DNA of 64,000 bases, from assembly GCF_026163685.1 (NCBI RefSeq), contig NZ_JAOXSR010000001.1:434001-498000 (forward strand), written 5' to 3'. Below, piece by piece: positions 38,801 to 55,997 of this stretch. Position 1 is the stretch's first letter; the number at the start of each line of letters is the position of its first letter. This DNA is from Oerskovia flava (lineage in GTDB: Bacteria; Actinomycetota; Actinomycetes; Actinomycetales; Cellulomonadaceae). Under the pieces are notes generated by a model, which was not told the DNA's origin, made no database searches, and saw only the letters and a program-made list of their open reading frames with translations. The translations under genes and the position numbers were made by a program.

Positions 38801-40554
38801 GGTGGACGTCGGTCCCCGACCAGTTCAAGGCGCCCAAGATCCCGGGCCCGAAGTTCAACGAGGCGCTCTTCGAGACGGTGACCACGGATCGGGTCCGGGT
38901 CGCGTTCACGAACGCACCGTCGTTCTTCACGGCGATCTCCGAGATTCAGGTGTTCGACTCCGGGCGTGACGTGCCCGAGGTCGTCAACGACCCGCCGACG
39001 GTCTCGATCTCGGTCGACACGTCCGCCGACGGCAACCTCTCGACGCGGCTCGTCGCCACGGTGAGCGACGACGGCATCCCCGAGGACGGCGAGCTCACGT
39101 ACGGCTGGGAGGTCGTCTCGGCGCCCGAGGGTGCCGGCGTGATCTTCGGCGACGCGAGCAGCCTGACGACGTCCGTCACGGGGACCGTGGCGGGGGACTA
39201 CGTCTTCCGGCTCACCGCGTCGGACGGTGAGCTGACGACCGAGCGGGAGGTCGAGGTCACCCTCGCCGAGAAGGCCATGTCCGCGGAGTTCGGTGCGGCG
39301 GCGACGATCACGACGAGCGGTTCTGCCTCCTGGGAGAACGCGAACCGGGTCAACGAAGCGACGACCCCGGCCAGCTCCGCACCGGGTGCTGGCAACGGCT
39401 GGGGCACGTGGGGCCAGCCGAACAACGGGACGAGCGCCGCGAACGCGGCGTGGATCCGGTACGCCTGGGGCTCGCCGGTGCTGGTCGCGTCGACCGAGAT
39501 CTACTGGTACGACGACAACGGCGGCACGCGGATGCCACGGGCCGACACCTACGTCGTCGAGCACTCCGCCGACGGAACGAGCTGGACACCGGTGACCCTC
39601 GCCGAGGGCTCGACGTACGCCGGGGCGCTGACCCGTAACGCGTACAACCGGATCGATTTCGAGCCGGTCGAGGCCCAGTACCTGCGGATCCGGATCACGG
39701 GTGTGCAGGGGAGCGGAGCGGGGACAGGGGTCCTGCGCTGGCGGGTGAACGGGGACACGGTCGAGTCGGTCGCGAGCCCCGTCATCATGCGGACCGTGAC
39801 GGGCCAGGTGCCGACGCTGCCCGAGCAGCTCGATGTCGTCTTCTCGACCGGGACGCGCGGTGCGCTGGACTTCACCTGGCAGGTGATCACGCCGGCCATG
39901 GTGGCCGAGACCAACGTGGAGCCGTTCGTCGTGTACGGCACGAACACCACGTACGGTCTGATCGCCGAGGCGCAGGTGTACGTCCGCCCCGAGGACTCGC
40001 CGGGAGGAATCTCCATCCAGGGTGCCGAGCAGTTCGAGCGGACCGTCGAGGTCGGTGAGCTGCCGCACCTGCCGACGAAGGTCCTCGTGTCGTACAACGA
40101 CGGGTCGCGCGACAACCAGGCGATCGGGGTGGACTGGGACTTCGACGAAGCCCTCGTCGAGACACCGGGCGTCTACACGGTGACGGGTGACCTCGTCCTG
40201 CCCGACTACGTCGGGACGGCGGGGACGACCACGACCACGCTCCGGCTGACGGTCGGGGACGGTGCACCAGATGGCCCGGCGGTCACCGTCACGGCCGACA
40301 CGCGGTGCGTCGCCGGTAAGGCGTTCGTGGCGGTCCGTGCCGTGAACGACGACGAGGTGCCGCTCACGGTGCGGCTCGACACGGAGTTCGGCACAAAGAC
40401 CGTCAACGGGGTGGCGCCGGGCAAGAGCGCGTACCAGTCGTTCGCGGTCCGGGCGGCGGCGGTCTCCGCCGGCGAAGCGACCGTGACCGTCACCGATGCC
40501 GAGGGGAGGTCGACCACCGCGACGTCCGCGTTCGACGCGCTGACCTGCGGCTGA
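35839..40554 (+). CDS. Large secreted six-hairpin glycoside hydrolase with CBMs and Cys-Gly C-terminal domain
   Basis: A 1571-residue secreted protein. A signal peptide (cleavage near AHA, residue 33) is followed by a beta-sandwich (about 60-310) and an (alpha/alpha)6-type catalytic region (about 320-830) resembling MGH1/GH63-like hydrolases, with YRWWGERYNSLD, TSWNNHYSQYLG and NFTVQYRGVRAGL. Then come an F5/8-type carbohydrate-binding module (868-1044), a PKD/Ig-like domain (1048-1143), a second such module (1146-1307), two bacterial Ig-like repeats (1308-1475) and the shared C-terminal domain (1481-1571). The exact GH family and substrate are not clear from sequence; arabinose-rich cell-wall glycans are likely from context. 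Two adjacent ATGs (35839, 35842) follow GAGAGGA. A strong terminator follows. Confidence 0.8.
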   Translation: MMSGRSFRKAVAAAVTGAMVCGGLVLLPASAHAASPVQPGNEDDVGLYTNGESDVMEIGDPAFVNEAEIAGLLEPDVPFTADSMHDAIFDADLAAGGTDYYLDRVLGVSGTAGNGVLQTRGRTLYMRGGSNWGVMGFAGSAFAGGPNNLGNFYTVTVPGVTVSEVGAQRFNAPSHASSRYTIGQTGVVADLKKLITYDNVAVTALTFTNPGGADATFTVRAASPIATTSTDADDELTGTRTLTSGSNNGLVDTPWSDVTVGLKAEGFERSGAALDREITVPAGGTLDLSVVGVLYTDTLTGSRDAFEDYAQMDPDEAFRTGVTEFNRRWAADIPYIDVPSAAIEKAIVYRWWGERYNSLDANEPGYVYQYPTTIEGVNLYQNSIALTQPMHLQDTKWIRTPYLPYGQILNIGELSGSSAFLDSPGHTSWNNHYSQYLGTAGLEAYNVHGGGADLAEKFAHYFEWDGKGQLEHYDGNDDKLIAYDTNYMPGNDSDAITFGYPRVNAGAPGARTIERPESAYVWGAFDAARQLYEIAGAEQAKVDEMGGTADEIRDAILDRLWSEETRMFLAGTSHGARSGGSLNPLSEAERDLIPAKESNLYDIYAENLIPFEDHEQYVDGYRFLRYGDNFPIFPFYTANQYDRAKYGIGGSNNFSNINFTVQYRGVRAGLRHYDPEHTYVTPAYASRLLDWMAWSIYPGGDVRVPNQAEYYSNWNPTTKTFNRNNPNHVMLGNMNYIFVEDMGGIQPRSDDKIELWPIDLGYEHFMVNNLRYHGSDITIVWDPDGSRYDLGAGYSLFVDGEKKATADELGRFVYDPTSNEVVEADDGLEVSVVASAASDFRTAKDTPIEDERVVSYLRTAGLDLDEEATNLAVGAELSSSATQEGVRPTPWRNFHTPGWSTGSMNYTPGAISTTERAVSLDAVTDGVTVNEPYWGNHGTTGDTGYVELDLGEATTLDNVKVWFVSDRQAGGYREPLRYSIQVPDGDGGWTSVPDQFKAPKIPGPKFNEALFETVTTDRVRVAFTNAPSFFTAISEIQVFDSGRDVPEVVNDPPTVSISVDTSADGNLSTRLVATVSDDGIPEDGELTYGWEVVSAPEGAGVIFGDASSLTTSVTGTVAGDYVFRLTASDGELTTEREVEVTLAEKAMSAEFGAAATITTSGSASWENANRVNEATTPASSAPGAGNGWGTWGQPNNGTSAANAAWIRYAWGSPVLVASTEIYWYDDNGGTRMPRADTYVVEHSADGTSWTPVTLAEGSTYAGALTRNAYNRIDFEPVEAQYLRIRITGVQGSGAGTGVLRWRVNGDTVESVASPVIMRTVTGQVPTLPEQLDVVFSTGTRGALDFTWQVITPAMVAETNVEPFVVYGTNTTYGLIAEAQVYVRPEDSPGGISIQGAEQFERTVEVGELPHLPTKVLVSYNDGSRDNQAIGVDWDFDEALVETPGVYTVTGDLVLPDYVGTAGTTTTTLRLTVGDGAPDGPAVTVTADTRCVAGKAFVAVRAVNDDEVPLTVRLDTEFGTKTVNGVAPGKSAYQSFAVRAAAVSAGEATVTVTDAEGRSTTATSAFDALTCG

Positions 40555-40577
40555 GTCGCGCTGACCGGCCACTCGGG

Positions 40578-40615
40578 CCGGGTGGGGCGGGGTCAGGAGC
40601 CCCCGCCCCACCCGG
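40578..40615 (+). terminator. Terminator of the large hydrolase gene
   Basis: A perfect 15-bp GC stem (40578-40592 with 40601-40615) with an 8-nt loop, followed by CTCTTG, 23 nt after the stop. Confidence 0.8.
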
Positions 40616-40895
40616 CTCTTGCCGTTGCGCGGACCGTAATACTTCAGGTGGTAGGTTTTCGCAACTCGGATTTCTGGATAGCAACTTTCGTCTTGGCATC
40701 GGCAGAAGTGGCCGGTATGGTCGCTCGAGTGACGTGGGCAACAATCCCCGTGTCGCGCGTGAGCGCTCGTCGACGAGCGCTGACGGCTCCGTCCGGGACC
40801 ACCGATCTGCGAACAGCGCGGTAGCCGATGTCGGTGCCAGGTGTTGTCGCCGATCGAGGGCCTCCGGCTCCTCGATATACGTCAAGGAGGACGTT
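40616..40895. other. Upstream region of the dehydrogenase fusion gene
   Basis: A relative AT-rich patch at 40637-40700 is the likely promoter zone. GGTTTTC (40654-40660) and TTTCTGG (40671-40677) weakly resemble the halves of sites A to C but without the conserved spacing. AAGGAGG at 40884-40890 is a full Shine-Dalgarno for the GTG at 40896. No gene was seen. Confidence 0.4.
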
Positions 40896-43800
40896 GTGCA
40901 CAGACCTATCCCGGGCCGCCGCTGGCTGACCCGCGGTGCCGCCGCAGCGCTGTCTGTTGCGGTACTGGTACCACTGACGATCAGCGGGGCGAGCGCCCAC
41001 CCCGGACACGACGACGCGACCATCGACCCACCGGCTGCCGCGGACGCGGCGGCGCTGGACTGGAACGAGTACGAGAAGAACCTGCTCACCAAGAACACGG
41101 GCGAGCCGATCGACCTGGCCGTGCTGCCCGACTCGCGGGTGCTGCACACGGCCCGTGACGGCGTCGTGCGCCTCACGGACTCGGCAACCGGTCGGACCAC
41201 CGAGGTCGCCGAGCTCGACGTCTACGCGAACTCCGAGGACGGGCTCCAGGGCATCTCCCTCGACCCGGACTTCGCGGAGAACGGCTACGTCTACATGGTC
41301 TACTCCCCTCGGGTGATGGACGGGACCTCGCCCGACGGGGTGGAGTACCCCGAGACGACGCCGCAGGGTAGTGCTCCGAACTCGCTGCCCGCTGGTGAGG
41401 ACGAGAGCTACTGGAACCAGTGGCTGGGGTACAACCAGCTCTCGCGGTTCACCTGGGACGAAGGGTCCAGCACGATCGACCTGGCCACCGAGCGGGAGAT
41501 CATCAAGGTCCCGGCCCAGCGAGGCCAGTGCTGCCACGTGGGCGCCGACATCGCGTGGGACGCCGACGGCAACATGTTCCTGTCCACCGGGGACAACACA
41601 CCGGCCGGTACCCCGGGCGCCAACGGCTACACGCCGATCAACAACGCCCCCGGCATGAACCCGGGCTTCGACGCCCGCCGAGGGGCCGGCAACACCAACG
41701 ACCTGCGCGGGAAGATCCTGCGGATCAACCCGATCGAGGACATCGCCGCGGACACCGAGCCCGGCCCCGGCAGCACCTACACGATCCCCGAAGGGAACCT
41801 CTTCGACGGCACGGACGCCGACCCGGAGCTGGTGCGCGAGGAGATCTACGTGATGGGTCTGCGCAACCCGTTCCGGATCGACTACGACGTCGAGTCCGGC
41901 TCCCTGTTCTGGGGCGACTACGGTCCTGACGCCGGTGCGGCGAACCCCGATCGTGGCCCGATGGGGTACGTCGAGTGGCAGTTGACGACCGAGCCGATGA
42001 ACGGCGGCTGGCCGTACTGCCACGGCCCGAACGAGGCCTACAACGAGTGGGACTTCGAGGCCGGGACGCCGGGAGAGTTCTTCGACTGCGACGCGCTGGT
42101 GAACACCTCCACCTGGAACACCGGTCTCGACGACCTCCCGCCGTCGATCGCGCCGCAGGTCTACTACGGCGACAACCCCGGCGACCAGCCCGAGCTGCTC
42201 GACCCGCTGGTCGAGTGGGGCGGCGGCGGTCAGGCGCCGATGGGCGGCCCGATCTACCGCTACGACGAGAGCCTCGAGTCGGACATCAAGTTCCCGGAGC
42301 ACTGGGACGGCAAGCCGCTCATGGCCGAGTTCTCGCAGGACTACGTGGCCGCGTTCACCCTTGACGAGCTCTCGTCCGACGGTGAGGTCACCGAGGTCAC
42401 CAACTTCCTGCCGAACGAGCACCTCGAGTCGGTCGGCCAGCCCATCTGGGACAACGTCATGGACATGGAGTTCGGTCCGGACGGCGCGCTCTACGTCCTC
42501 GAGTACGGCGACGGCTTCTTCCGCCAGAACCCCGACGCCGGGCTGTACCGGATCGGCTACGGCGCGGACAACCTGACCCCGCAGGCCTTCATCTCGGCCG
42601 ACCCGATCTCGGGCAGTGACGCACCGCTCGAGGTGACGTTCGACGCCTCGGCCTCTCGTGACGCGGAGAGCCCGAGCGAGGAACTCACGTACGAGTGGGA
42701 CTTCGACGCCGACGGTGAGTACGACGCCGAGGGCGTGTCCGTCACGCACACGTTCACCGAGCGGGGCCAGTTCAACGTGCAGCTGCGCGTCACCGACCCC
42801 GAGGGCAACTTCGGGCTCGCGATCCAGCAGATCACGGTCGGCAACACCGCGCCCGAGATCACGCTCGACGTCCCGGACGGCGCCATCTTCAACTGGGGCG
42901 ACGCCGTCTCGTACACGGTCTCGGTGAACGACGCCGAGGACGGGGACGACCCGACGTGCCGCAACATCCAGTACACGTTCGGTCTCGGGCACAACGAGCA
43001 CGCGCACCCTGAGGTGAGCGGTCGAGCGGCGGACACCGAGGCTGGTTGCGGGTTCACCATCCAGACGAGCGAGGATGCCGTCGAGCACGGTGAGGGCGAG
43101 AAGATCTTCGGCACCCTCGTCGTGCGGTACACCGACCAGGCGCAGGGCGACGTGCCCGCGACGACCGGTGAGGTCACGAACATCCTCAAGCCCGAGGTGC
43201 AGCAGGCGGAGTGGTATGACGCCGCCGAGGGCATCGAGGTCGTGGACGGTGCGGACGCCAGCGCCGGGTCCTACGTGACCTCGCTCGACGAGGGCGACTC
43301 GTTCACCTTCCGTCCGATGAGCTTCGTGCACGCCCCCACCGGGGACACCATCGACCAGGTCACCGTCCGCGGGAGCGGTGAGGGCACGGTCACGCTGGGG
43401 TGGGCGGACGAGGACGGTGCGGCCGGTGAGCCGCTCGCCCAGTTCGAGTTCACCGGCGAGGACGGCTGGCGGGACGTCGCGCAGACGCTGACCAGCGTGC
43501 CCGAGGGTTCGGGCTCCGTCGTCGTGACGAGCACCGGTGGGGTCGACGTCGACGCCCTCACCTTCGCCGTCGGCGACGGTGAGGGCGAGCCGCTCACGGT
43601 TCCGGTCGAGCAGGTGTCGATCCAGATGTTCTCGTTGATCCCGTGGGTGAACGAGGTGGGTCTGGAGGCGGTGCTGGAGCGTCTGGGTGAGATCGGGTTC
43701 GAGAACATCGAGCCGTTCGGTGGGAACTTCGGTGGGTACACCGCGCAGGAGTTCCGTGAGCTGGCGGACTCGTACGGTCTGAACGTGCCGTCGTCGCACT

Positions 43801-44669
43801 ACAACGTGAACGAGGGGACGTTCGACGAGACGTTGGACTACGTCTCGACGCTGGGCCAGGAGTACGTGGGCTCGGGCGGGTTCCCGCAGCCGGGGATCGG
43901 TTCGTACGAGAACACGTTGGCGACGGCCGAGGCGATGAACCGTCTGGGTGAGCGGACCGTGGACGCGGGGCTGGAGAAGTTCTTCGGCCACAACCACGAC
44001 CAGGAGTTCACGACGACGTACGAGCACGACGGTGAGGAGCTCTCCGCGTGGGAGATCCTCGTCGCGGAGACCGACCCGGAGTTCGTGACGTTCCAGCTGG
44101 ACGTGGCGTGGGCGGCTCATGCGGGTGTCGACGTCCCGGCGCTGATCGAGCAGTACGGCGACCGGATCGAGCTGCTGCACGTCAAGGACGCGATCGGTCT
44201 GGCTGGTGAGGGTCGTCCGACCTTCACCAACCTGGGTGAGGGCGACATGCCGCTGCAGGAGATCCTCGCCGCGGGTCAGGAGGCAGGCGTCGCGTACTAC
44301 GTGATGGAGTACGACCTGGCCCCGGCGGGCGAGGAGTTCGCCGTGACCGGGTTCGAGTACCTCACAGGGCTGCCGGCCGGAGAGCCGGACGTGGCCGTCG
44401 AGGTGACCGTCCAGACGCGGTGCCTCGCCGGCGGTGCGTACGTCGCGGTCCGCGCCCTCAACGAGGACACGGTCCCGCTCACCATCACGCTCGACACGCC
44501 GTACGGCAGCAAGACGGTCGAGAACGTGGCCCCGGGCAAGAACGCCTTCCAGACGTTCAACGCGCGGGCCGACGAGGTCGACGCCGGCACGGCGACCGTC
44601 ACCACGACCGACGCCGAGGGGAGGACGGCCACGGTCGAGTCCGGGTACGCCGCTCTGAGCTGCGGCTGA
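40896..44669 (+). CDS. Secreted PQQ-type sugar dehydrogenase / PKD / CBM / TIM-barrel isomerase-like fusion
   Basis: A 1257-residue multidomain protein. A signal peptide (cleavage near ASA, residue 34) precedes a glucose/sorbosone-dehydrogenase beta-propeller (about 50-555; YMVYSPR, CCHVGADIAWDADGNMFLS, MGLRNPFRIDYD), which in the family oxidises sugars with PQQ. A PKD domain (561-650), an Ig-like region (650-767) and a CBM6-like module (768-893) follow. Next is a xylose-isomerase-like TIM barrel (904-1160; GFENIEPFGG, FQLDVAWAAHAGVD, IELLHVKD), of the sugar-phosphate isomerase/epimerase superfamily. Last is the shared Cys-Gly C-terminal domain (1167-1257). The GTG start has a perfect AAGGAGG 5 nt upstream. 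Codon use in the TIM segment leans to CTG/GGT/CGT more than its surroundings. Confidence 0.85.
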   Translation: MHRPIPGRRWLTRGAAAALSVAVLVPLTISGASAHPGHDDATIDPPAAADAAALDWNEYEKNLLTKNTGEPIDLAVLPDSRVLHTARDGVVRLTDSATGRTTEVAELDVYANSEDGLQGISLDPDFAENGYVYMVYSPRVMDGTSPDGVEYPETTPQGSAPNSLPAGEDESYWNQWLGYNQLSRFTWDEGSSTIDLATEREIIKVPAQRGQCCHVGADIAWDADGNMFLSTGDNTPAGTPGANGYTPINNAPGMNPGFDARRGAGNTNDLRGKILRINPIEDIAADTEPGPGSTYTIPEGNLFDGTDADPELVREEIYVMGLRNPFRIDYDVESGSLFWGDYGPDAGAANPDRGPMGYVEWQLTTEPMNGGWPYCHGPNEAYNEWDFEAGTPGEFFDCDALVNTSTWNTGLDDLPPSIAPQVYYGDNPGDQPELLDPLVEWGGGGQAPMGGPIYRYDESLESDIKFPEHWDGKPLMAEFSQDYVAAFTLDELSSDGEVTEVTNFLPNEHLESVGQPIWDNVMDMEFGPDGALYVLEYGDGFFRQNPDAGLYRIGYGADNLTPQAFISADPISGSDAPLEVTFDASASRDAESPSEELTYEWDFDADGEYDAEGVSVTHTFTERGQFNVQLRVTDPEGNFGLAIQQITVGNTAPEITLDVPDGAIFNWGDAVSYTVSVNDAEDGDDPTCRNIQYTFGLGHNEHAHPEVSGRAADTEAGCGFTIQTSEDAVEHGEGEKIFGTLVVRYTDQAQGDVPATTGEVTNILKPEVQQAEWYDAAEGIEVVDGADASAGSYVTSLDEGDSFTFRPMSFVHAPTGDTIDQVTVRGSGEGTVTLGWADEDGAAGEPLAQFEFTGEDGWRDVAQTLTSVPEGSGSVVVTSTGGVDVDALTFAVGDGEGEPLTVPVEQVSIQMFSLIPWVNEVGLEAVLERLGEIGFENIEPFGGNFGGYTAQEFRELADSYGLNVPSSHYNVNEGTFDETLDYVSTLGQEYVGSGGFPQPGIGSYENTLATAEAMNRLGERTVDAGLEKFFGHNHDQEFTTTYEHDGEELSAWEILVAETDPEFVTFQLDVAWAAHAGVDVPALIEQYGDRIELLHVKDAIGLAGEGRPTFTNLGEGDMPLQEILAAGQEAGVAYYVMEYDLAPAGEEFAVTGFEYLTGLPAGEPDVAVEVTVQTRCLAGGAYVAVRALNEDTVPLTITLDTPYGSKTVENVAPGKNAFQTFNARADEVDAGTATVTTTDAEGRTATVESGYAALSCG

Positions 44670-44675
44670 CGCCAC

Positions 44676-44712
44676 GACGGGTGAGGCGGGGTCCGACCCC
44701 GCCTCGCCCGTC
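44676..44712 (+). terminator. Terminator hairpin 1 after the fusion gene
   Basis: A 17-bp stem (44676-44692 with 44696-44712, one G-T pair) and a 3-nt loop begin 7 nt after the stop. Confidence 0.8.
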
Positions 44713-44718
44713 CCGGAA

Positions 44719-44759
44719 GGTGTGCCCGCCGCGGTCCTCACGACCGCGGCGGGCACACC
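44719..44759. terminator. Terminator hairpin 2, convergent position
   Basis: A perfect 18-bp stem (44719-44736 with 44742-44759) with a 5-nt loop, 7 nt after the first hairpin. It can also end the disA transcript arriving from the other side. Confidence 0.8.
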
Positions 44760-44844
44760 GCTGTCCGGGGTAGTGCGGGCGCGCCAGGGCTGAGCAGGGC
44801 AGACCGGTCAGGTCAGCGCAAACCTGGTCAGGGCCGGGTGAGGA

Positions 44845-45930
44845 TCAGACGTAGCGCTCGAGGATGCTCGACTCGGCGAGGCGCGACAGGCCCTCGCGCA
44901 CCGCGCGGGCCCGCTGCTCGCCGACGCCGTCGACCGCCATGAGGTCGTCGATGCTCGCCGCGAGCAACTTCTGCAGGCCGCCGAAGTGCGCGACGAGCCG
45001 GTCGATGATGGCGCCCGGCAGGCGGGGAACCTTCGAGAGCAGCCGGTAGCCGTGGGGCGCGACGGCGGCGTCGAGCGCGTCGCCGCCACCTGGGAGCTCG
45101 AGGACTCGGCCGATCTGCCCCAGGTCGAGCAGCTGCGTCGAGTCCAGTGAGGACAGCGCGCGCTGCACGTCCGCCAGCGACCTCTCCTTGCGGGCGAGCT
45201 CGACGTAGTCGCGGATGACGAACTCGCGGTCCGAGCCGATGCCGCCGATGAGCTCGTCCAGCTGCAGGGCGAGCAAACGCCCGTCGGTGCCGAGCTCGAT
45301 GACGTAGCCCGCGATCTCCTCGGAGATGCGGCCGACCATCTCGAGCCGCTGGACCACGGCGCACACGTCGCGCACCGTCACGAGGTCCTCGATCTCGAGG
45401 GCGGACAGGGTTCCGCTCACCTCGTCGAGGCGGGCGCGGTAGCGCTCGAGCGTGGCCAGGGCCTGGTTGGCGCGCGAGAGGATCGTGTCGGAGTCCTCCA
45501 GCACGTAGCGCTGACCGCCGACGTAGATCCCGACGATCCGCATGGACGCGCTCACCGAGACGACCGGGTAGCCGGACTGCTTGGCGACCCGCTCAGCGGT
45601 GCGGTGGCGGGTGCCGGACTCGGTCGTCTCGATCGTGGGGTCGGGCAGCAGCTGGACCGCCGCGCGCAGGATCCGGTTGGCGTCGCGGTCGAGGACGACG
45701 GCGCCGTCCATCTTGGACAGCTCGCGCAGCCGGGTCGCGGAGAAGCCCACGTCGAGGACGAACCCACCCGAGCACATGGCCTCGACGGTCTTGTCCAGGC
45801 CGAGGACGATCAGGGCACCCGTCCGCCCGCGCAGGATGCGTTCCAGGCCGTCGCGGAGCTCGGTCCCGGGAGCGACGGCCGCAAGGGTCTCCCGGAGCAG
45901 GTCGTCCAGGTGCGCGGGGGAGTTTGCCAC
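44845..45930 (-). CDS. disA: DNA integrity scanning diadenylate cyclase DisA
   Basis: Makes the second messenger c-di-AMP from two ATP while scanning DNA for branched structures. The 361-residue length is typical. The DAC domain shows the DGA motif (75-77) and RHR motif (108-110), then a linker helix domain and a C-terminal HhH DNA-binding domain ([31 protein letters not shown]). The GTG start at 45930 has TAAGAT (45943-45938) 7 nt upstream and no Shine-Dalgarno, so it is probably leaderless. It is downstream of radA on the same strand with its own promoter. Confidence 0.97.
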
Positions 45931-45996
45931 GGGCAGAATCTTACGCTGCCGACGCTGTCACGCCGCGGTGGAGCGCCCGGACCTGGCAAGATCTGG

Positions 45997-47466
45997 TCAC
46001 GATTCGGTTGCGGTGTGTCCAGGCGCGGGCCGTGCTGCACCCCGTGCGAGCTCGACGGCCTCGCCGAGGTGCTGAGCGGGCAGGATCGTCATGCCGGCGA
46101 CGGGCTTCACGGCGGACCCCCGGGGGACGACGGCGCGCGTGAAGCCAAGCCGTGCGGCCTCCCCGAGCCGGCGGTCGAGCCCGCCGACGGGGCGGATGTC
46201 GCCGGCCAGCCCGACCTCGCCGAACGCGATGGTGCCCGGTGGCAGACCCTCGTTCTCCCGCGCGGAGAGCACCGCGAGGGTGATGGCGAGGTCGGCGGCC
46301 GGCTCGGAGACGCGGGCGCCTCCGATGGTCGAGACGTAGACGTCTTGGTCGACGACCCGCACGCCCGCGTGCCGGTGCATCACGGCGAGGATCATCGCGA
46401 GGCGGCTGTTGTCGATACCGCTGGTGGTGCGCCGCGGGTTCGCGAGCGAGCTGGGGACGACCAGTGCCTGGATCTCCAGCGCGAGCGGCCGGCGGCCCTC
46501 CAGGGTGACCGAGGTGCAGGTGCCCGGGACGCCGATGCCGGTGTGCGACAGGAAGAGCCCGCTCGGGTCGGCGAGGCCCACGATCCCGGCCTCTGAGAGG
46601 TCGAAGCAGCCGACCTCGTCGGTGGGCCCGTACCGGTTCTTCACGGCGCGCACGAGGCGCAGGCGCGAGTGGCGGTCGCCCTCGAACTGGCAGACGACGT
46701 CGACGAGGTGCTCGAGCGTGCGGGGGCCCGCGACGGAGCCGTCCTTGGTGACGTGCCCGACGAGTACGACGGGCAGGTCCCGGCCCTTCGCCGCGGCGAT
46801 GAGTGATGCCGCGACCTCCCGCACCTGGCTGACGCCGCCCGGCGCGCCGTCGACCTGCGCGGAGGCGATCGTCTGGACGGAGTCGACGACGAGAAGGTCC
46901 GGGTCGACGGCCTCGACGTGCCCGAGGATCGTCGCGAGGTCCGTCTCGGCGGCGAGCAGCAACCCGGGCGCGAGGGCGCCGATCCGTTCGGCACGCAGCC
47001 GTACTTGACCGGCGGACTCCTCGCCCGTGACGTACAGGACGGTGCGCGGCGCGGAGGCCGCGACGCCGGGCAGGTCGGTCGCGCCGGACGCGACGTTGGA
47101 GGCGACCGCCAGCAGCAGCGTGGACTTGCCGACACCCGGTTCCCCGGCGAGCAGCACGACCGCGCCCGGGACGATACCGCCACCGAGCACCCGGTCGAAC
47201 TCCGCGACCCCGGTGGGCGTCGCCCGGGCGGACTCGACGTTGATCTCGCCGATCGGGCGGGCGGGGGAGCGCGTCGGGGTGACCGCCGTCGTCCGCGGCC
47301 CGGCCGCGGCGGCGGCTTCCTCTGTCACGGTGCCCCACTCCTGGCACTCCCCGCAGCGGCCCGCCCACTTGGCGGTGGTCCAGCCGCACTCGCTGCAGCG
47401 GTAGCCGGGGCGGGTGCCGCGCTTGGACGACTTCGCGGTGGTTGAGGACGTGCTGGTCGAGGTCAC
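45997..47466 (-). CDS. radA: DNA repair protein RadA
   Basis: A RecA-like ATPase that helps process recombination intermediates and interacts functionally with DisA. The 489-residue protein has an N-terminal zinc finger (C24, C27, C38, C41), Walker A GEPGVGKST (108-116), the RadA-specific KNRYG motif and the C-terminal Lon-like domain. An Ala/Pro-rich linker between zinc finger and ATPase accounts for the length beyond ~460. The GTG start has TACCGT (47478-47473) exactly 6 nt upstream, a leaderless arrangement. Confidence 0.96.
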   Translation of the reverse strand: MTSTSTSSTTAKSSKRGTRPGYRCSECGWTTAKWAGRCGECQEWGTVTEEAAAAAGPRTTAVTPTRSPARPIGEINVESARATPTGVAEFDRVLGGGIVPGAVVLLAGEPGVGKSTLLLAVASNVASGATDLPGVAASAPRTVLYVTGEESAGQVRLRAERIGALAPGLLLAAETDLATILGHVEAVDPDLLVVDSVQTIASAQVDGAPGGVSQVREVAASLIAAAKGRDLPVVLVGHVTKDGSVAGPRTLEHLVDVVCQFEGDRHSRLRLVRAVKNRYGPTDEVGCFDLSEAGIVGLADPSGLFLSHTGIGVPGTCTSVTLEGRRPLALEIQALVVPSSLANPRRTTSGIDNSRLAMILAVMHRHAGVRVVDQDVYVSTIGGARVSEPAADLAITLAVLSARENEGLPPGTIAFGEVGLAGDIRPVGGLDRRLGEAARLGFTRAVVPRGSAVKPVAGMTILPAQHLGEAVELARGAARPAPGHTATES

Positions 47467-47582
47467 GGCTCGACGGTAGCCGGGGCGTCCGACAGCCGCG
47501 CAAGCACGTGCACCGGCACTCCCGTGCCGACACGTGCGCCGGAGTCCACCGTCCGGGGGCGATCCGCTGCGATCCTGGGGGC

Positions 47583-48128: not shown

Positions 48129-48400
48129 TCCAGCCGTTTCGAGTTCCTGCGGGGCGCGGCGGGTCCTCGCGCATTCGTACTGCCACGTCTTCCCTGGTCA
48201 GGCGCTGGTCCACGCCTTGAGTCGGTTCTCCTGCAGAGCACGGTTGCACGAGCGGTCAACCGAAAACCATTGCGAAGAGGTTTCTGTCTGTGGCATGTTC
48301 CCCCTGATGTCCCGCACGACGACGTGCACCGAGGGTCCCGGGTCGACCGCCAGCGCGCGCCGGCCCGCGTCGACCCGGTCGACCTCAACGAGGAGCAGGC
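48129..48400. other. Upstream region of the GH127-CBM-GH43 operon with site C
   Basis: At 48262-48284 lies GAAAAC-N9-GAG-G-TTTC, like sites A (27944) and B (35409) apart from one inserted G. GAGGAGCAGGC precedes the start at 48401. No gene and no clear -35/-10 could be read in the rest. Confidence 0.5.
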
Positions 48401-50656
48401 ATGCAGCACAACGACGTGAAGCCGTCGAGACGGACCGTCCTGCGGTACGGGGCGCTCGCGACGGTCGGTGCCGTCGCGCTGGCGGGTGCGGGCGCACCCG
48501 CCGCGGCGGGGCGGACGGGGAGCGCGGGAGGTCTGGTGACGCCCGCGGCCCGCCCGTCTGTCGGGTCCGCGCTCCTGCGTGCGGCGGACCGGTCGGTCAC
48601 CTTCGACCGCTGGGTCGCGGAGCCCTTCGCCATGGCGGACGTGACGCTGGCGCCGAGCGTCGCGACGCGGGCCCAGGACCAGGCGCTGCACCTCGCCCGC
48701 GCCTATCCGGTGGACCGGATCCTCGCGGTCTTCCGACGCAACGCGGGCCTGGACACTCGCGGCGCGGCCGCGCCCGGCGGCTGGGAGGGGTTCGGGCACG
48801 CGAACGAGCGGGCATGGGGCCCGGACGACTACCCGGGGCGGGCGAGCACACAGACGGCGAACCTCCTGCGCGGGCACTACGGCGGCCACTTCCTGTCGAT
48901 GCTCGCCCTCGCCTATGCGAGCACCGGCGACCCCGTGCTCAAGGAGAAGTCCGACGCCGTCGTCGACGGTCTCGGCGAGGTGCAGGCGGCGCTCGCCGCG
49001 ACGGGGCGGTACAGCCATCCCGGCTTCCTCGCCGCCTACGGGGAGTGGCAGTTCAGCAGGCTCGAGGAGTACGCCCCCTACGGCGAGATCTGGGCGCCCT
49101 ACTACACGTGCCACAAGATCATGGCGGGGCTCGTGGACGCGTACCGGCTCACGGGCTCGGGGCAGGCGCTCGAGATCGCGGCGTCGATGGCGGACTGGGT
49201 CGACCACCGGCTGAGCGGGTTGCCCGCCGCGCAGCTCGAGCGGATGTGGGGCATCTACATCGCGGGCGAGTACGGCGGGATGAACGAGGTCCTCGCGGAC
49301 CTGGCGGTGCACACGGGCGAGAACGCGTACGCCGAGACCGCGCGGCTGTTCGACCTCACATCGCTCGTCGACGCGTGCGCGCAGGACCAGGACACGCTCG
49401 ACGGCAAGCACGCGAACCAGCACATCCCGCAGTTCCCCGGGTACCTCAAGCTCTACGACATCACCGGCTCCGAGCGCTACCGCGACGCCACCGAGAACTT
49501 CTGGGGCATGGTCGTCCCGGGCCGCACCTATGCGCACGGCGGGCACGGCGAGGGCGAGCTCTTCGGGCCTCCGGGCATCGTCGCCGGCGACATCGGTGCC
49601 CGCAACGCCGAGACGTGCGGCACCTACAACATGCTCAAGCTCAGCCGCCTGCTGTTCTTCCACACCCTCGACGCGCGGTACATGGAGTACTACGAGCGCG
49701 CGCTGCTCAACCACGTCGTGGGGTCGAAGAAGGACGTCGAGTCCACCACGAGCCCCGAGGTCACGTACATGTACGGCGTGAATCCCGGGACCCGCCGGGA
49801 GTACGGCAACACGGGGACGTGCTGCGGGGGCACCGGGTTGGAGAACCACGTGAAGTACCGCGACTCGGTGTACTTCCGCGCGGTCGACGGCGGTGTGCTC
49901 TACGTCAACCTCTACCTGGCGTCGACGCTCGACTGGCCCGAGGAGGGGTTCCGCGTCGTGCAGGAGACGCAGTACCCGCGGGTCGGGTCGAGCGTGCTGA
50001 CGGTCGACGGCGACGGTCCGCTCGACCTGCGCCTCCGGGTGCCGGGATGGGTCCGGCGCGGGTTCCGTGTGCGCGTCAACGGCGCGGAGCAGGAGATCGA
50101 CGCCGTCCCGGGCACGTACGTCAGCGTCTCGCGCGCCTGGAGCCGCGGCGACCGGGTGGAGATCGACATGCCGATGAGCGTGCGAGCGGTGCCGACGCCC
50201 GACAACCCGCGGGTGCAGAGCATCGAGCACGGCCCGACGGTCCTGCTCGCCCGCAGCACCTCGCGCAGCTTCCTGCGGCTCTCGCTGTCCACCCACCTCG
50301 GCCTCGACGGGTCGCTCGACGCCGCGCTCACCAACCTCGGGGACGGGTACTTCCGCCTCGGCGACCTCGTTCTCGAACCGGCGTGGTCCGGCGACGACAC
50401 CCAGTACCACATGTACGTCGAACGACATGAGCCGAGGGTGGCCTTCGCCGGCCTCGACAGCGGCGTGCGCAACGCCGCGCGCGCCGACGGGACCTCCTTC
50501 CTCGACGTCGTCTGGGAGGCGGGCGGCTTCTCCTCCCGCCACGAATTCCTCACGACCGTGCAGCGGACCGCGGACGACTTCGTCGGCGCGGGCCTGCTGA
50601 GCCGCCGGGACGCCCAGCGCATCCTGGTCACCGCCGGCCGGGCGAGGCTCGCATGA
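48401..50656 (+). CDS. Tat-exported beta-L-arabinofuranosidase-type GH127 hydrolase
   Basis: A 751-residue GH127-like enzyme with a twin-arginine signal (SRRTVLRYG, R10-R11, then an Ala-rich hydrophobic stretch to about residue 36). It should be exported folded, which suits a zinc-cysteine active site. The ligand set is E404-T-C406 (NAETCGTYNML) and C474/C475 (GTCCGGTGLENH), with C474 the probable nucleophile. It could also fall in the related GH146 family. The (alpha/alpha)6 barrel covers about 85-520, then a beta-sandwich. Unlike the other secreted proteins here it lacks the Cys-Gly C-terminal domain, but the next gene, overlapping by 4 nt, supplies binding modules and that domain on a separate chain. 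Confidence 0.9.
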   Translation: MQHNDVKPSRRTVLRYGALATVGAVALAGAGAPAAAGRTGSAGGLVTPAARPSVGSALLRAADRSVTFDRWVAEPFAMADVTLAPSVATRAQDQALHLARAYPVDRILAVFRRNAGLDTRGAAAPGGWEGFGHANERAWGPDDYPGRASTQTANLLRGHYGGHFLSMLALAYASTGDPVLKEKSDAVVDGLGEVQAALAATGRYSHPGFLAAYGEWQFSRLEEYAPYGEIWAPYYTCHKIMAGLVDAYRLTGSGQALEIAASMADWVDHRLSGLPAAQLERMWGIYIAGEYGGMNEVLADLAVHTGENAYAETARLFDLTSLVDACAQDQDTLDGKHANQHIPQFPGYLKLYDITGSERYRDATENFWGMVVPGRTYAHGGHGEGELFGPPGIVAGDIGARNAETCGTYNMLKLSRLLFFHTLDARYMEYYERALLNHVVGSKKDVESTTSPEVTYMYGVNPGTRREYGNTGTCCGGTGLENHVKYRDSVYFRAVDGGVLYVNLYLASTLDWPEEGFRVVQETQYPRVGSSVLTVDGDGPLDLRLRVPGWVRRGFRVRVNGAEQEIDAVPGTYVSVSRAWSRGDRVEIDMPMSVRAVPTPDNPRVQSIEHGPTVLLARSTSRSFLRLSLSTHLGLDGSLDAALTNLGDGYFRLGDLVLEPAWSGDDTQYHMYVERHEPRVAFAGLDSGVRNAARADGTSFLDVVWEAGGFSSRHEFLTTVQRTADDFVGAGLLSRRDAQRILVTAGRARLA

Positions 50657-52608
50657 GCGCCCGGACGAGCACATGGCCCGGTGCCGGCACCGGCGCCCGT
50701 GCCCGGCTGGCCGTCGCGGTCGCGGTGGTCCTGACGTGCCTCGCGGGCCTCGGCGCCACGGTGAACGCCTCGCTCGCGGCGTCCACGTCCTCGGCGAACG
50801 CCACCGCGGCTGCCGCCGAGCCGGTGAACGTCGCGCTCGTCGGTGAGCCCGCCGCGAGCTACACGGCCGCCTGGAACACCCTCGAGGCGGTCAACGACGG
50901 CGCGGGCGTGAGCACGGGCGGCGCGCACGGTGCGACGTGGGGGACCTACGGGCAGAACCCGCGGCCCGCGACGCAGTGGCTCGAGTACTCGTGGCCCGCA
51001 CCGGTGACGGTGGACCGGTCGGTCGTGCGCTTCTGGTCCGACGGCGCGGACGCCAATGGTGACAACGTCCGGGTGCCGCAGTCGTGGACGATCCAGTACT
51101 GGGACGCCGCGGCGGGAGCCTTCGCCGACCTGCCGGAGCCGAGCGGCTTCCCGGTGGCGCGGCTCGAACCGAACGAGACGACGTTCGACGCCGTGTCCAC
51201 CACGCGCCTGCGGGCGACGTTCTCGGCCCTCCCTGGCGGACCGGGCAGCACCTTCTCGGCCGTGGGCGTCTCCGAGTGGGAGGTCTGGGGCTCCGGCGGT
51301 GTCGAGGAGCCCGAGCCCGTCGACCCGCACGGCCCGATCGACGTCGCCCCGGTGCACGTCCCGACCCCGGTGGGTGTCCTGCCGGACCTCCCGGCCAAGG
51401 TCGACGCGGTCTTCGTGGACGGACGGGTCGAGCGCGTCGCGGTCGACTGGCAGGAGGTGACGGCCGACGACGTCGCGCAACCGGGCGCCCTCGAGGTCAC
51501 CGGCACCACCGAGGCGTTCGCGGACCTCGTGCGCGGCACCGTGCACGTCCGCGCGGGCGAGCCGGGCGCCGTCGTCGGCGTCGACCCCGTGAGCGTCGTG
51601 ACGCTCGCGGGCGTCGCTCCCGTGCTCTCGCCGGTCGTCACCGCGGCGTACGAGGACGGGTCGAGGGACAGTCGGACCGAGGTGTCCTGGGGCCCGGTCG
51701 CACCGGCGGACTACGCCGAGCCCGGTGGGTTCTTCCTCGTCCCCGGCACGGTGGCCGGCACGGACCTGGAGGCAGAGGCCGTCGTGTTCGTGCTCGCACC
51801 GGACGACGTCGAGGACACCCTGCCGCCCACGGTGACGATCACCGCGGAGCCCGGCCCGACGACGTCGGGATGGATCGTGACGCACCCCGAGGTCGTGGTG
51901 GTGGCGAGCGACAACCGCGACCCGTCGCCCGCGGTCGAGATCAGCGTGGACGACGGCGCGTGGACGCCCTACGCGGGGCCGTTCGCCGTCGACCAGGACG
52001 GGGTGCGCACGGTCCGTGCCCGCGCGACCGACGAGGCGGGGAACGTCGGCGAGGCGGTGCGCGAGCTGCGCGTCGACACGGTCGCGCCGGTGACCACCGC
52101 GACGGTCCGCGACCTGGGTGCGGGCGTGGAGATCACGCTCGAGGCGACCGACGCCGGCTCGGGGGTCGACCGCATCCAGTGGGAGGGCCCGGGGACCTTC
52201 TGGGGCACGTACTCCGAGCCGTTCACGCGCGCGCTGACCGACGAGGTGCAGGTGATCGAGTTCGCGGCGACGGACGCCGCGGGCAACGTCGAGGAGCGCG
52301 GCCGTCTCGAGCTCCCTGCGCGGGGTGAAGGCCTTGACGTCGACGTGGTCGTCACGCCGCGCTGCCTCGCCGGGACGGTCCACGTGGCGGTCCGCGCGAC
52401 GAACGCCGAGGACGTGCCGCTCGACGTCGAGCTCAGCACGCCCTACGGGAACCGGTCGGTGCCGGGCGTCGCCCCGGGTCGATCCGCGTACCAGTCCTTC
52501 ACGGCCCGCGCGGCGTCGGTCGACGGCGGGGACGTGGCGGTCACGGCCACGGCCGGCGGCGACCCGACCACCGTCTCCGTGGCGTTCCCCGCGACCGACT
52601 GCGGCTGA
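50653..52608 (+). CDS. Secreted carbohydrate-binding protein without catalytic domain
   Basis: A 651-residue protein. A signal peptide (LAVAVAVVLTCLAGLGATV, cleavage roughly residue 40-57) precedes an F5/8-like binding module (about 58-215; GTYGQNPRPATQWLEYSW), two bacterial Ig-like repeats (about 230-385) and two Ig-like domains of the OmpL47/chitobiase C-terminal type (about 390-550; VRARATDEAGNVGEAV). The shared Cys-Gly C-terminal domain ends it (about 560-651). No hydrolase motif is present. The ATG overlaps the GH127 stop (ATGA), so it is made in step with that enzyme. A role as targeting or anchoring partner is inferred. Confidence 0.8.
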   Translation: MSARTSTWPGAGTGARARLAVAVAVVLTCLAGLGATVNASLAASTSSANATAAAAEPVNVALVGEPAASYTAAWNTLEAVNDGAGVSTGGAHGATWGTYGQNPRPATQWLEYSWPAPVTVDRSVVRFWSDGADANGDNVRVPQSWTIQYWDAAAGAFADLPEPSGFPVARLEPNETTFDAVSTTRLRATFSALPGGPGSTFSAVGVSEWEVWGSGGVEEPEPVDPHGPIDVAPVHVPTPVGVLPDLPAKVDAVFVDGRVERVAVDWQEVTADDVAQPGALEVTGTTEAFADLVRGTVHVRAGEPGAVVGVDPVSVVTLAGVAPVLSPVVTAAYEDGSRDSRTEVSWGPVAPADYAEPGGFFLVPGTVAGTDLEAEAVVFVLAPDDVEDTLPPTVTITAEPGPTTSGWIVTHPEVVVVASDNRDPSPAVEISVDDGAWTPYAGPFAVDQDGVRTVRARATDEAGNVGEAVRELRVDTVAPVTTATVRDLGAGVEITLEATDAGSGVDRIQWEGPGTFWGTYSEPFTRALTDEVQVIEFAATDAAGNVEERGRLELPARGEGLDVDVVVTPRCLAGTVHVAVRATNAEDVPLDVELSTPYGNRSVPGVAPGRSAYQSFTARAASVDGGDVAVTATAGGDPTTVSVAFPATDCG

Positions 52609-52657
52609 CCCCGGCCGTCCCACCAACCCGTCCACCAGCACCCTTCGAGGAGAGACG

Positions 52658-55600
52658 ATGACGACCTCCCGAGCACGACACGACCACCGATCTGCCGCAA
52701 CCCGCTCGCGGCACCGGCATCGTTCCCGACCCCGTTCCCGCTCAGGTCCGCCGGTGGCCGGCGCGCTCGTGACCGCGCTCGTCGCGGCCACGGCGGTCGT
52801 GGGAGCGGTCGCGTCGCCGGCCGCAGCGGCGACGTTCACCTCGACGCAGAACCCGATCCTCGGTGACGGCAGCTACTACTCTGCCGACCCGGCGCCGCTC
52901 GTCGTGCCGGCGGGCGCGCCGGGCAACGACACGGGCGCCGACCAGCTCTACGTCTACACGGGCCACGACGAGGCCGGGCCGACGACGAACGACTTCATCA
53001 TGAACGAGTGGGGCGCGTTCGTGACGGCCGACGTGGACGCCGGCGAGTGGACGCACCACCCGTCGCTCATGCGTCCCGAGCAGGTGTTCGACTGGGCGTC
53101 GCCCGGCCGCGCGTACGCCGGGCAGGTCGTGCGCGGCATCGACGACCGGTACTACTGGTACGTGCCCGTCCACGAGGCGGCGAGCACCGCGAGCGACCGG
53201 TTCGGCATCGGCATCGCGGTGTCCGAGACCCCGACCGGGCCGTGGACCGACCACGTCGGGGCCCCGATCATCTCCCAGCGGCTCCCGACGCCGAACACCA
53301 TCCACAACATCGACCCGACGGTGCTCGTCGACGGGGAGGGCGAGGACCGGCGCGTCTACGTCTACTGGGGGAGCTTCGGCAACCTGCGGATGCTCGAGCT
53401 CGACCAGGACATGAAGACGCCGGTGGGCCAGGTGAGCACGGTCACCGGCCTGACCGGGTTCTTCGAGGGGGCGTGGGCGTTCGAGCGCGACGGCACCTAC
53501 TACATGGCGTACGCCGGCAACAACGCCGGACCGACGTCGTCGTGCACCCCCGCGAACTACCACGCGTGCCTCGCCTACGGGACGGCGCCCGCGCCCACCG
53601 GCCCCTGGACGTACCGCGGCACCATCCTCTCGCCGGTCTCCTCGACGACCAGCCACCCCGGCATCGTCGAGCACGACGGCGAGTGGTGGCTGGCGTACCA
53701 CACGGCCGACGCCGTGGGCGGCAACCACTTCCGCCGCTCGGTCGCGATCGACCGGGTCGAGTGGGACGACAGCCAGACGCCGCCGCGGATCAAGCCTGTC
53801 GTCACGACACCGGAGCGGACCAAGGACGTCACGCCGCGTGCCAACGTCGCTCAGGAGGCGACGGTCACGGTGTCGAACGAGCCCGTCCCCACGCAGTACT
53901 GGAAGAAGGCGCTCAACGACGAGATCGTGCGCCCCAACCCGCTCCCGCCGGACATGTGGGGGACCTGGACGGGCAACAACCCGCCCCAGCAGTGGGTGCA
54001 GTACACCTGGGACCAGCCGATGCGGCTCGCGGGCTCACAGATCGACTTCTGGAACGACCAGCCGCAGGGCACGGGGGTCGGCGTCGCAGCACCCGCGTCC
54101 TGGCGCATCCAGTACTGGGACGCGTCGGGCACGGGTGCGTGGGTCGACGTCGCGAACCCGAGCGCCTACGGCACGGCGACGAACGGCTTCCAGTCGACGA
54201 CCTTCGACCCCGTCACGACGACGCAGGTGCGTGCGGTCTTCGACGCCTCGACGAACGGCAGCACCTACTCGGGCGTGGCCGTCGAGGAGTGGAAGGTCCT
54301 CGCCCAGCAGCCCGAGGCCGTCGAGCCGCCCGCGATGACCGTCGAGGTCGGGGAGACCGAGCTGCCGGGGACCGTCCCGGTGACGTTCCCGGGCGGGACG
54401 ACGCTCGCGGTCCCCGCGTTCTGGGACGAGGTCACCGCCGACGACGTCGCGGAGCCTGGGACGTTCACCGTCGAGGGGTCCGTCCTCGGCCACGCGGACG
54501 GACGGGTGGGCGCCGAGGTCACGGTGATCCCGGCGCAGGCCGCCGAGGGCGACGAGACCGCGCCGACACTCACGCTCACGCCCCTCGGGAGCGCGGGCAG
54601 CGACGGCTGGTTCCGCTCGGACGTGCGCGTGCGCGTCGACGCCGCGGACGACTCGGGCGGGCGCGTCGTGCTCACCACGCAGGTGGACGACGACGACCCG
54701 GTCACCACTGAGCCGACGCGCACCACCGAGGTCGTGGTGGCGGGCGACGGCGAGCACCGGGTCGTGGCACGGGCGACAGACCGCGCGGGCAACGTCTCCG
54801 ACGAGGAGGCGCTCGACGTCCTCGTCGACCGGGTGGCCCCGGTCAGCACGGGCACGCTCGACCCCGACGCCCGGACCGTGACGGTCACGGCGACCGACGC
54901 GACGTCCGGCGTCGCGCTCGTCGAGGTCGCGATCGGCACGGGCGCGTGGCAGGTCTACGACGGCCCGGTCGCCGCACCGGACGCGAGCCAGCACCGGGTC
55001 TCCTTCCGCGCGGTCGACGCGGCGGGCAACACCGAGACGCCGAAGGTCGTGACGATCCCGGCCGACATCTCGGGACCGCTCACGGGGAACGTCGCACCGA
55101 TCGCCACGGCGAGCGCGTCGTACACGGCCGGCTGGAACAGCGTCGGCGCCCTCAACGACGGCGCCGACCCCGCCACCCCGAGCCAGGCCCAGATCTGGGG
55201 CACGTGGTCGGGCAACCGGCCCGCGAGCCAGTGGGTCCGCTACGACTGGGCCCGTCCGGTCCGGCTCACCGGGGCCGAGCTGAAGTTCTGGCGGGACTCG
55301 AACCCGGGCACGGGGGACGGGGTCGCTGCGCCCGACGGGTGGTCCCTGGAGTACTGGGACGACGACGCGGGCGCCTGGGCGGACGTCGCGGACGCGTCGG
55401 GGTACGGCACGTCGACCACGGCCTTCAACACCGTCACCTTCGAGCCCGTGACGACCTCACGGCTGCGCGCCACCGTGCAGGCGAACGGCAACGGCTCGAC
55501 GTACTCCGCCGTCGCGATCACCGAGTGGCGCGTGTTCGCGGACGACCCGGGCACGGGTCCGGTCGTCCCGGAGCTCGCCGTGACCGCGACCGCGCAGACG

Positions 55601-55861
55601 CGTTGCGTGGCGGGCCGGGCCTACGTCGTGGTCCGTGCGGTCAACGATCATGACGGGCCCGTCGACGTCGCGCTCGAGACCGCGCACGGGTCACGGACGG
55701 TGGACGCGGTGGCACCGGGCAAGAGCGCCTACCAGTCCTTCGCGGTCCGCGCGGCCCACGTCGACGGCGGCGACGCCGTCGTGCGCGCGAAGGGGAGCGT
55801 CGGCGGCCAGGAGGTGAGCGTCGACGTCGTGGTGCCCTACGAGCCGATCGTCTGCGGCTGA
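52658..55861 (+). CDS. Secreted GH43 family hydrolase with two CBMs and Cys-Gly C-terminal domain
   Basis: A 1067-residue secreted enzyme. It has a long, Arg/His-rich signal region (1-58, cleavage near AAA-T), then a five-bladed GH43 propeller (about 60-382). The catalytic triad is readable as base D77 (SADPAP), pKa-modulating D219 (NIDPTV) and acid E270 (FFEGAWAF). Two F5/8-like modules (390-547 and 809-963) bracket Ig-like domains (553-805). The C-terminal domain is 972-1067. Activity is probably arabinofuranosidase, arabinanase or xylosidase. It is third in the operon after the GH127 and binding protein, with GAGGAGAG before the ATG. Confidence 0.9.
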   Translation: MTTSRARHDHRSAATRSRHRHRSRPRSRSGPPVAGALVTALVAATAVVGAVASPAAAATFTSTQNPILGDGSYYSADPAPLVVPAGAPGNDTGADQLYVYTGHDEAGPTTNDFIMNEWGAFVTADVDAGEWTHHPSLMRPEQVFDWASPGRAYAGQVVRGIDDRYYWYVPVHEAASTASDRFGIGIAVSETPTGPWTDHVGAPIISQRLPTPNTIHNIDPTVLVDGEGEDRRVYVYWGSFGNLRMLELDQDMKTPVGQVSTVTGLTGFFEGAWAFERDGTYYMAYAGNNAGPTSSCTPANYHACLAYGTAPAPTGPWTYRGTILSPVSSTTSHPGIVEHDGEWWLAYHTADAVGGNHFRRSVAIDRVEWDDSQTPPRIKPVVTTPERTKDVTPRANVAQEATVTVSNEPVPTQYWKKALNDEIVRPNPLPPDMWGTWTGNNPPQQWVQYTWDQPMRLAGSQIDFWNDQPQGTGVGVAAPASWRIQYWDASGTGAWVDVANPSAYGTATNGFQSTTFDPVTTTQVRAVFDASTNGSTYSGVAVEEWKVLAQQPEAVEPPAMTVEVGETELPGTVPVTFPGGTTLAVPAFWDEVTADDVAEPGTFTVEGSVLGHADGRVGAEVTVIPAQAAEGDETAPTLTLTPLGSAGSDGWFRSDVRVRVDAADDSGGRVVLTTQVDDDDPVTTEPTRTTEVVVAGDGEHRVVARATDRAGNVSDEEALDVLVDRVAPVSTGTLDPDARTVTVTATDATSGVALVEVAIGTGAWQVYDGPVAAPDASQHRVSFRAVDAAGNTETPKVVTIPADISGPLTGNVAPIATASASYTAGWNSVGALNDGADPATPSQAQIWGTWSGNRPASQWVRYDWARPVRLTGAELKFWRDSNPGTGDGVAAPDGWSLEYWDDDAGAWADVADASGYGTSTTAFNTVTFEPVTTSRLRATVQANGNGSTYSAVAITEWRVFADDPGTGPVVPELAVTATAQTRCVAGRAYVVVRAVNDHDGPVDVALETAHGSRTVDAVAPGKSAYQSFAVRAAHVDGGDAVVRAKGSVGGQEVSVDVVVPYEPIVCG

Positions 55862-55877
55862 TCCACGGCCGGACGAG

Positions 55878-55913
55878 GCGCGGCGGGAGGCCAACGTGCG
55901 CTTCCCGCCGCGC
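55878..55913 (+). terminator. Terminator of the GH127-CBM-GH43 operon
   Basis: GCGCGGCGGGA (55878-55888) pairs perfectly with TCCCGCCGCGC (55903-55913) across a 14-nt loop, 16 nt after the GH43 stop. Confidence 0.6.
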
Positions 55914-55997
55914 GGCGTGTCGTGGGCACGGCCGGGCGCACCCTAGGCTGGGCGATCATCAGCCCGGTCGGGCAGCTCCAGCCGGAGGGAGGGTGGC

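Follow-up and report, generated by a model that had tools for sequence, protein, structure and literature searches.

The window analysed here, a stretch of 64,000 nucleotides from the genome of the soil actinobacterium Oerskovia flava (assembly GCF_026163685.1, contig NZ_JAOXSR010000001.1, positions 434,001 to 498,000 of the forward strand), is an L-arabinose/arabinan utilisation locus (9413-13270, 28161-33561 and 48401-62919) in which four large exported proteins end in a common C-terminal domain (CTD) of about 92 residues, all in frame (Table 1). None of the GH127 enzymes, the solute-binding protein or the sugar-metabolism enzymes of the locus carries this domain. A preliminary description of the window had reported the four proteins with their shared end, and the set is larger than was noted there, with 36 members across the genome; the CTD is an unnamed Ig-like domain of wide but patchy occurrence that exported actinobacterial enzymes carry, nearly always at the C-terminus. 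The proteins are as then described, but two of the domain starts that were given, 44395 and 55575, miss the frame by about one base. The first carrier scores 588 bits against NCBIfam NF041578, below the cut-off of 3200.

Table 1. Genes and CTD copies of the window, with the basis of each assignment where one is given
Feature	Position	Strand	Basis
Carrier 1: exported HypBA2-like (six-hairpin type) hydrolase with F5/8-type, PKD-like and Big_4 modules, terminal CTD	35842..40554	+	Pfam, NCBIfam, leader and start
CTD copy 1	40273..40551	+	sequence search; AlphaFold model built on this copy
Carrier 2: exported GSDH-type dehydrogenase, PKD, CBM6-like, xylose-isomerase-like barrel, terminal CTD	40896..44669	+	Pfam, leader and start
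CTD copy 2	44388..44666	+	sequence search and alignment
Carrier 3: exported, Big_4 and OmpL47-type modules, no catalytic domain recognised (Pfam, NCBIfam), terminal CTD	50653..52608	+	leader
CTD copy 3	52330..52605	+	sequence search and alignment
Carrier 4: exported GH43 enzyme with F5/8-type, Big_4 and OmpL47-type modules, terminal CTD	52658..55861	+	Pfam, NCBIfam, leader and start
CTD copy 4	55571..55858	+	sequence search and alignment
Arabinofuranosidase	9413-10963		
GH127 genes	starts 10970, 31558, 48401		
Solute-binding protein	28161-29477		
FGGY kinase	58749-60455		
L-arabinose isomerase	61402-62919		

A search with one copy recovered 36 CTDs in the 4.11-Mb genome (22 contigs), all with E <= 2.6e-9 and none with an internal stop, and a profile search of the same genome again returned 36. 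Each carrier possesses a single CTD and its reading frame ends 0-2 residues after the matched stretch; a weak second match in L032 (E 4.6e-6, over half of the profile), located where Pfam places the end of the GH31 part, is taken as chance. According to a simple hydropathy criterion, which asks for a positive start, then a hydrophobic stretch and a small-residue cut site, all 36 carriers have an export-type leader, as had been proposed for the four proteins of the window; two of the leaders were found after the start was sought elsewhere, and the weakest start is that of L047 (TTG). A loose twin-arginine pattern fits 7 of the 36 leaders, and therefore some carriers may use the Tat rather than the Sec route. 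By eye, the GH127 protein encoded at 48401-50656 has a twin-arginine-like leader as well, yet it lacks a CTD. The absence of an LPxTG motif and of a C-terminal membrane helix, first seen in the window proteins, extends to the whole set: no lipobox, no LPxT[GAN] within the last 60 residues and no combination of LPXTG, hydrophobic segment and basic tail at the C-terminus was detected in any of the 36 carriers, in which the highest 18-residue mean hydropathy over the last 160 residues is 1.54. Likewise, PF00746 was not matched in this genome by the best 31 of 51 candidates.

The terminal position is maintained beyond this genome. Among 221 distinct copies (pooled loci read, E <= 1e-6, stop codon visible), the stop follows within 6 residues in 215, after 0-2 residues in 205 of them and after 3-6 in 10, and hence the position previously called strict is the rule, with rare internal copies. 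Of the remaining six, one is followed by a 26-residue aromatic tail and five are farther inside, three (L152-L154) being the leading member of two copies in tandem, with the other copy at the chain end, and two (L055, L121) being followed by about 105 residues that are CBM5/12-like by eye. L055/L164 and L121 are the clearest non-terminal CTDs. Neighboring proteins in genomes of family f38 have CTD-like domains at their ends that are in tandem or poor in cysteine (L155; L152-L154), and in the tandem pair of L152-L154 the chain ends FACDD. The weak internal matches in L165 (E 7e-5) and L166 (E 0.013 and 1.6e-6), which fall outside the 221, may be distant relatives or chance.

Two cysteines, one near each end of the domain, had been described as invariant, and the chains as ending in Cys-Gly. 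Across 197 distinct copies of at least 80 residues with E <= 1e-6, both cysteines are present in 178, neither in 17, only the first in 2 and only the last in none, and both are missing in 2 of the 36 copies of the O. flava genome; the Cys-Gly end holds for the four window copies, but for only 93 of the 197. Mapped on a FastTree tree that was built without the cysteine columns, the two traits show at least 10 and at least 9 changes. Supported branches offer 5 independent pairs, of which 4 have the second trait following the first, 1 shows no difference and none has it opposed, although five pairs are too few for significance and the tree is rough, with the changes on about ten branches. The cysteines are present or absent together and therefore look structural, probably as a disulphide from the end of the first strand to the chain end, rather than as an attachment site. 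Attachment via the terminal cysteine was rejected as unlikely in view of the copies that lack both cysteines and of the varying residue after the last Cys, and for the same reasons the suggestion that Cys-Gly is an attachment or processing signal is not supported.

No family of Pfam or NCBIfam was seen above cut-off for any of the 36 CTD sequences, which agrees with the earlier failure to name one. At E <= 0.1 the members touch 15 Pfam families, the commonest being DUF4232 (PF14016), matched by 10 of 36 with a best E of 1.6e-4; the first member scores 13.8 bits, the only one for which bits are given, against a cut-off of 27. PLipase_C_C (PF05506) is touched by one member (E 0.015). The AlphaFold model, obtained with a 36-row alignment, predicts a seven-strand Ig-like sandwich (pLDDT 98.1, pTM 0.87), which together with the co-occurring cysteines is consistent with the disulphide-locked beta-sandwich originally envisaged. 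In the VIA fold comparison this model resembles many Ig, FnIII, PKD and GH2-type sandwiches, with Z of 7.9-9.7 among the matches listed and none outstanding (the best, Z 9.7, being at 2.5 A over 85-87 residues), and Foldseek gave no match at E <= 0.001. Searched with the profile, the PDB yielded a single natural protein, at E 0.67, besides two designed Ig domains (E 0.0017 and 0.0021). By its predicted structure, the CTD falls among the Ig-like sandwiches (Ig/FnIII/PKD-like), an assignment of fold class only. The most conserved positions of the 197 copies are N25 (188), G67 (188), G40 (186), G50 (186), K/R42 (170), R60 (168) and Y/F39 (160). Y/F39 and G40 are located at a predicted hairpin between strands 31-37 and 40-47, and in the model this hairpin is a plausible contact surface. 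No description of the CTD was recognised in the open-licence literature, as judged from titles and abstract openings, and the available portions of PMC10167667, PMC6433265, PMC10049358 and PMC10509167 hold no direct answer on it.

A compact predicted fold in which a cysteine pair closes the chain end could also act as a receptor-free cap that protects long exported enzymes against unfolding and carboxypeptidase attack. We consider this function unlikely, since part of the copies dispense with both cysteines and orthologs manage without such an end, and since the near-invariant polar residues N25 and R60, though maybe structural, are left unexplained by it.

In the family, at least 95 of 221 genomes have at least one CTD (best 23 candidates per genome). 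Fuller counts, drawn from the best 150 candidates per genome, give 36 copies in O. flava, 27-65 in 15 genomes of group g8, which we take to be Cellulosimicrobium and for which some values may be low, 12-32 in seven genomes of g23 and 19 in one of g24, and the other genera listed have 0-7 copies. A class-wide draw found the CTD in at least 34 of 394 genomes and at least 12 of 138 genera (best 12 candidates per genome), and named records come from Cellulosimicrobium, Actinoplanes, Micromonospora, Dactylosporangium, Acrocarpospora, Microbacterium and Cellulomonas. In a plasmid collection, the first CTD matched 4 of 72,556 records, belonging to Cellulosimicrobium, Clavibacter and Nonomuraea; three carry a feature named for the partner (LamG-like, GH43 and GH43) and one no listed gene, and the Nonomuraea record, of 11.9 Mb, is probably a chromosome. 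The plasmids NZ_CP040796.1 and NZ_CP040787.1 of the plant-associated actinobacterium Clavibacter phaseoli have a GH43 gene with a partial CTD match.

The strict end position and the very high copy number in few genera are features to be expected of a processed sorting signal, removed or linked by a dedicated enzyme as sortase or type IX substrates are, and the C-terminal domain of the latter is also a beta-sandwich according to the accessible part of PMC4804311. Nevertheless, exactly one copy was counted in 35 of 40 picked low-copy genomes, some by weak matches, which argues against an obligatory dedicated machine and fits a module that binds a ligand already present. As the CTD moreover has no LPXTG, hydrophobic segment or conserved last residue, can lack both cysteines and matches no sorting-domain model of Pfam or NCBIfam, a processed signal seems, on the evidence of the domain sequences and copy numbers, very improbable.

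The carriers are highly diverse. Those of glycan type include GH43, GH92, GH59, GH30-type, GH31, GH49 and GH32 enzymes, arabinofuranosidase, rhamnogalacturonan lyase and pullulanase, and further carriers are a BNR-repeat protein, ThuA-GSDH proteins and 3-keto-disaccharide hydrolases. The non-glycan type is represented by a subtilase, an M28 peptidase, a nuclease/5'-nucleotidase, a purple acid phosphatase and an asparaginase. Since the majority of carriers are glycan-active and possess further sugar-binding modules, and the aromatic residue Y/F39 at the predicted hairpin is frequent, the CTD might be a carbohydrate-binding module that directs enzymes to polysaccharide of plant or microbial origin, a role that would also suit the CBM5/12-like modules sometimes found in its slot in orthologs. 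However, an asparaginase or a nuclease gains little from a polysaccharide-binding end, and therefore a common place of the carriers fits better than a common substrate, as the preliminary description had also judged in preferring location or assembly to substrate binding. The presence of the domain on phosphatase, subtilase and peptidase as well, its nearly always terminal position and the lack of any CBM family above cut-off (the sole touch being CBM_35, E 0.077, in 1 of 36 members) make polysaccharide binding, in our judgement, improbable. At the locus itself, the second and third CTD genes are separated by two minus-strand genes (44845-45930 and 45997-47466) that by eye are presumably DisA- and RadA-like, and two small membrane-anchored proteins with no Pfam match at E <= 0.001 adjoin the CTD genes (34636-35364 and 55998-56693).

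In order to see what occupies the CTD slot in related proteins, the C-termini of the best homologs of four carriers were compared (59 relatives in 85 rows, 27 for the nuclease, 26 for the pullulanase, 19 for the subtilase and 13 for the phosphatase, all from loci matched to the C-terminal part), the ends being sorted by eye and by regular expression. A CTD is present in 17 of the 85 rows, and in one of these, L177, it is followed by a CBM5/12-like end. In the 68 homologs with other ends, 9 have an LPXTG-like or membrane-type anchor, 10 a CBM5/12-like module and 12 a short Trp-rich or hydrophobic tail, so that an anchor or CBM5/12-like module fills the slot in 19 of 68. Upon checking of such tails with Pfam, 2 of 5 CBM5/12-like ends passed, 2 fell below cut-off and 1 gave nothing, and both LPXTG ends (2 of 2) passed. 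At the level of sequence, this suggests that the CTD can substitute for surface attachment. Short Trp/Phe-rich or hydrophobic tails occupy the slot in the pullulanase ends L205, L208, L209, L211, L212, L213 and L229, similar ones are found in the nuclease ends L180, L185, L186, L188 and L195, and L125, L146 and L149 have such a tail just after the CTD and no LPXTG; these tails are possibly another retention signal.

A second line of evidence comes from a published particle. Dou et al. (2015) obtained from the culture fluid of Cellulosimicrobium cellulans F16 a 'hemicellulosome' of 20-65 nm and about 17.9 MDa, with 27 identified proteins that include glucanases, xylanases, mannanases, peptidases and laccases; neither cohesin nor dockerin was found in the particle or in the F16 genome, and the authors call its assembly unexplained (PMC4562250). 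Its key subunit, of Pfam order ThuA-GSDH-PKD-CBM6-PKD, is full length inside the particle, and the free forms, released by proteinase K or present in the supernatant, are of 118.3 and 118.5 kDa and lack about 500 C-terminal residues (PMC4562250). The same order is found in L021, with a K319L-like PKD match in second place and a terminal CTD, and in 17 of 17 close homologs (L269-L285, 70-81% identical, from 15 g8 and 2 g23 genomes), all of them ending in a CTD. Of all 30 loci of that homolog search, 27 have a whole or cut CTD, two (L288, L294) are cut before the end and L286 ends without one. In the C. cellulans copy L279 two ConA-like modules precede the CTD, and a product of 118.3 kDa requires the loss of 528-553 residues, that is, of both ConA-like modules and the CTD; of these elements, only the CTD is found on all 36 unlike carriers. 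The lifetime of activity, 214 hours for the particle and 6 hours for the truncated subunit (PMC4562250), would also be expected of a protective cap, although the particle itself may be the cause; the occurrence of free truncated forms is not explained by a cap.

Taken together, we hypothesize that the CTD is a non-covalent C-terminal docking or retention module on the cell surface or on an extracellular enzyme particle, a reading drawn from sequence to which we give about an even chance. It is favored because the 36 carriers have one terminal copy each and nearly all other copies are also placed at the stop, because the partners have export rather than a substrate in common, and because the ends that replace the CTD include anchors and the particle subunit is free only in truncated form. 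The carriers would be exported by their N-terminal leader, after which the last 92 or so residues are predicted to fold alone into the seven-strand sandwich, with a putative disulphide tying the first strand to the chain end. The folded domain may then bind non-covalently a putative common receptor, protein or glycan, on the envelope or the enzyme particle, and would act in the manner of a dockerin or of a surface-binding module, one per enzyme, at the chain end and with any catalytic partner. It would be neither cleaved nor covalently linked, because it has no conserved end motif, hydrophobic tail or required cysteine. Whether it is, further, the general docking tag of an actinobacterial multienzyme particle free of cohesin and dockerin, represented by the Cellulosimicrobium 'hemicellulosome', with a putative scaffold or receptor and representing a second, independently evolved route to a cellulosome, is a tentative extension that we regard as doubtful.

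Several observations weigh against docking or retention. In the slot comparison, no anchor can be recognised in 37 of the 68 homologs, which have Ig-like repeats, some other sequence or nothing there, 10 of the pullulanases ending at once, and retention is therefore not always needed; the frequencies of that comparison also stand without a baseline from homologs of other exported enzymes. PF00746 is matched in 10 of 26 CTD-rich genomes (that of O. flava, 17 of g8, 7 of g23 and G212) and in 85 of the 195 others, with at most the best 31 candidates per genome; LPXTG is not rarer where the CTD is abundant, and a replacement of LPXTG by the CTD at genome level was thus not seen. Nor is there a clear signal of concerted evolution of the CTDs within a genome, the mean identity being 52.6% for orthologous CTDs across genomes, 49.7% for different enzymes of the same genome and 45.8% for different enzymes of different genomes (15 sequences, four enzymes and four genomes). 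As for the particle, the published subunit was matched to L279 by domain order, species and mass only, the segment lost in the free forms holds two ConA-like modules besides the CTD, and of the 27 particle proteins the key subunit alone provides the link. The cap and the binding of substrate are less probable alternatives to docking or retention.

With up to 65 copies per genome and no matching Pfam or NCBIfam model, the CTD probably decides the location of many exported actinobacterial enzymes. If it docks, it would answer how the 27-protein particle of PMC4562250 assembles without cohesin or dockerin, and could serve as a portable tag for surface display. In addition, its presence gives a simple list of exported proteins that belong together.

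Among known systems, the proposed docking or retention module is like a dockerin in occurring as one copy, usually terminal, on many unlike exported enzymes. Dockerins are calcium-binding helical pairs, whereas the CTD is a predicted all-beta sandwich, and none of the 36 CTDs matched a dockerin model (Pfam, E <= 0.1). The C-terminal domain of type IX secretion in Bacteroidota is likewise, in the part of PMC4804311 available, a C-terminal beta-sandwich on many unlike exported proteins, but the CTD matches none of its models (Pfam, NCBIfam, E <= 0.1), and among the records and genomes searched all CTD hosts are Actinomycetes. The LPXTG signal (PF00746) fills the CTD slot in the homologs L189, L193, L198, L257 and L260, in contrast to the 36 carriers, which are devoid of LPXTG, membrane segment and basic tail, and CBM5/12 (PF02839) fills the same slot in some nuclease orthologs although its sequence is unrelated. 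The Ig-like sandwiches, including DUF4232, PLipase_C_C and PKD/FnIII, have in common with the CTD its predicted fold class and, for DUF4232 and PLipase_C_C, weak sequence matches, and from these the CTD is set apart by the cysteine pair that closes the chain end and by its near-strict terminal position.

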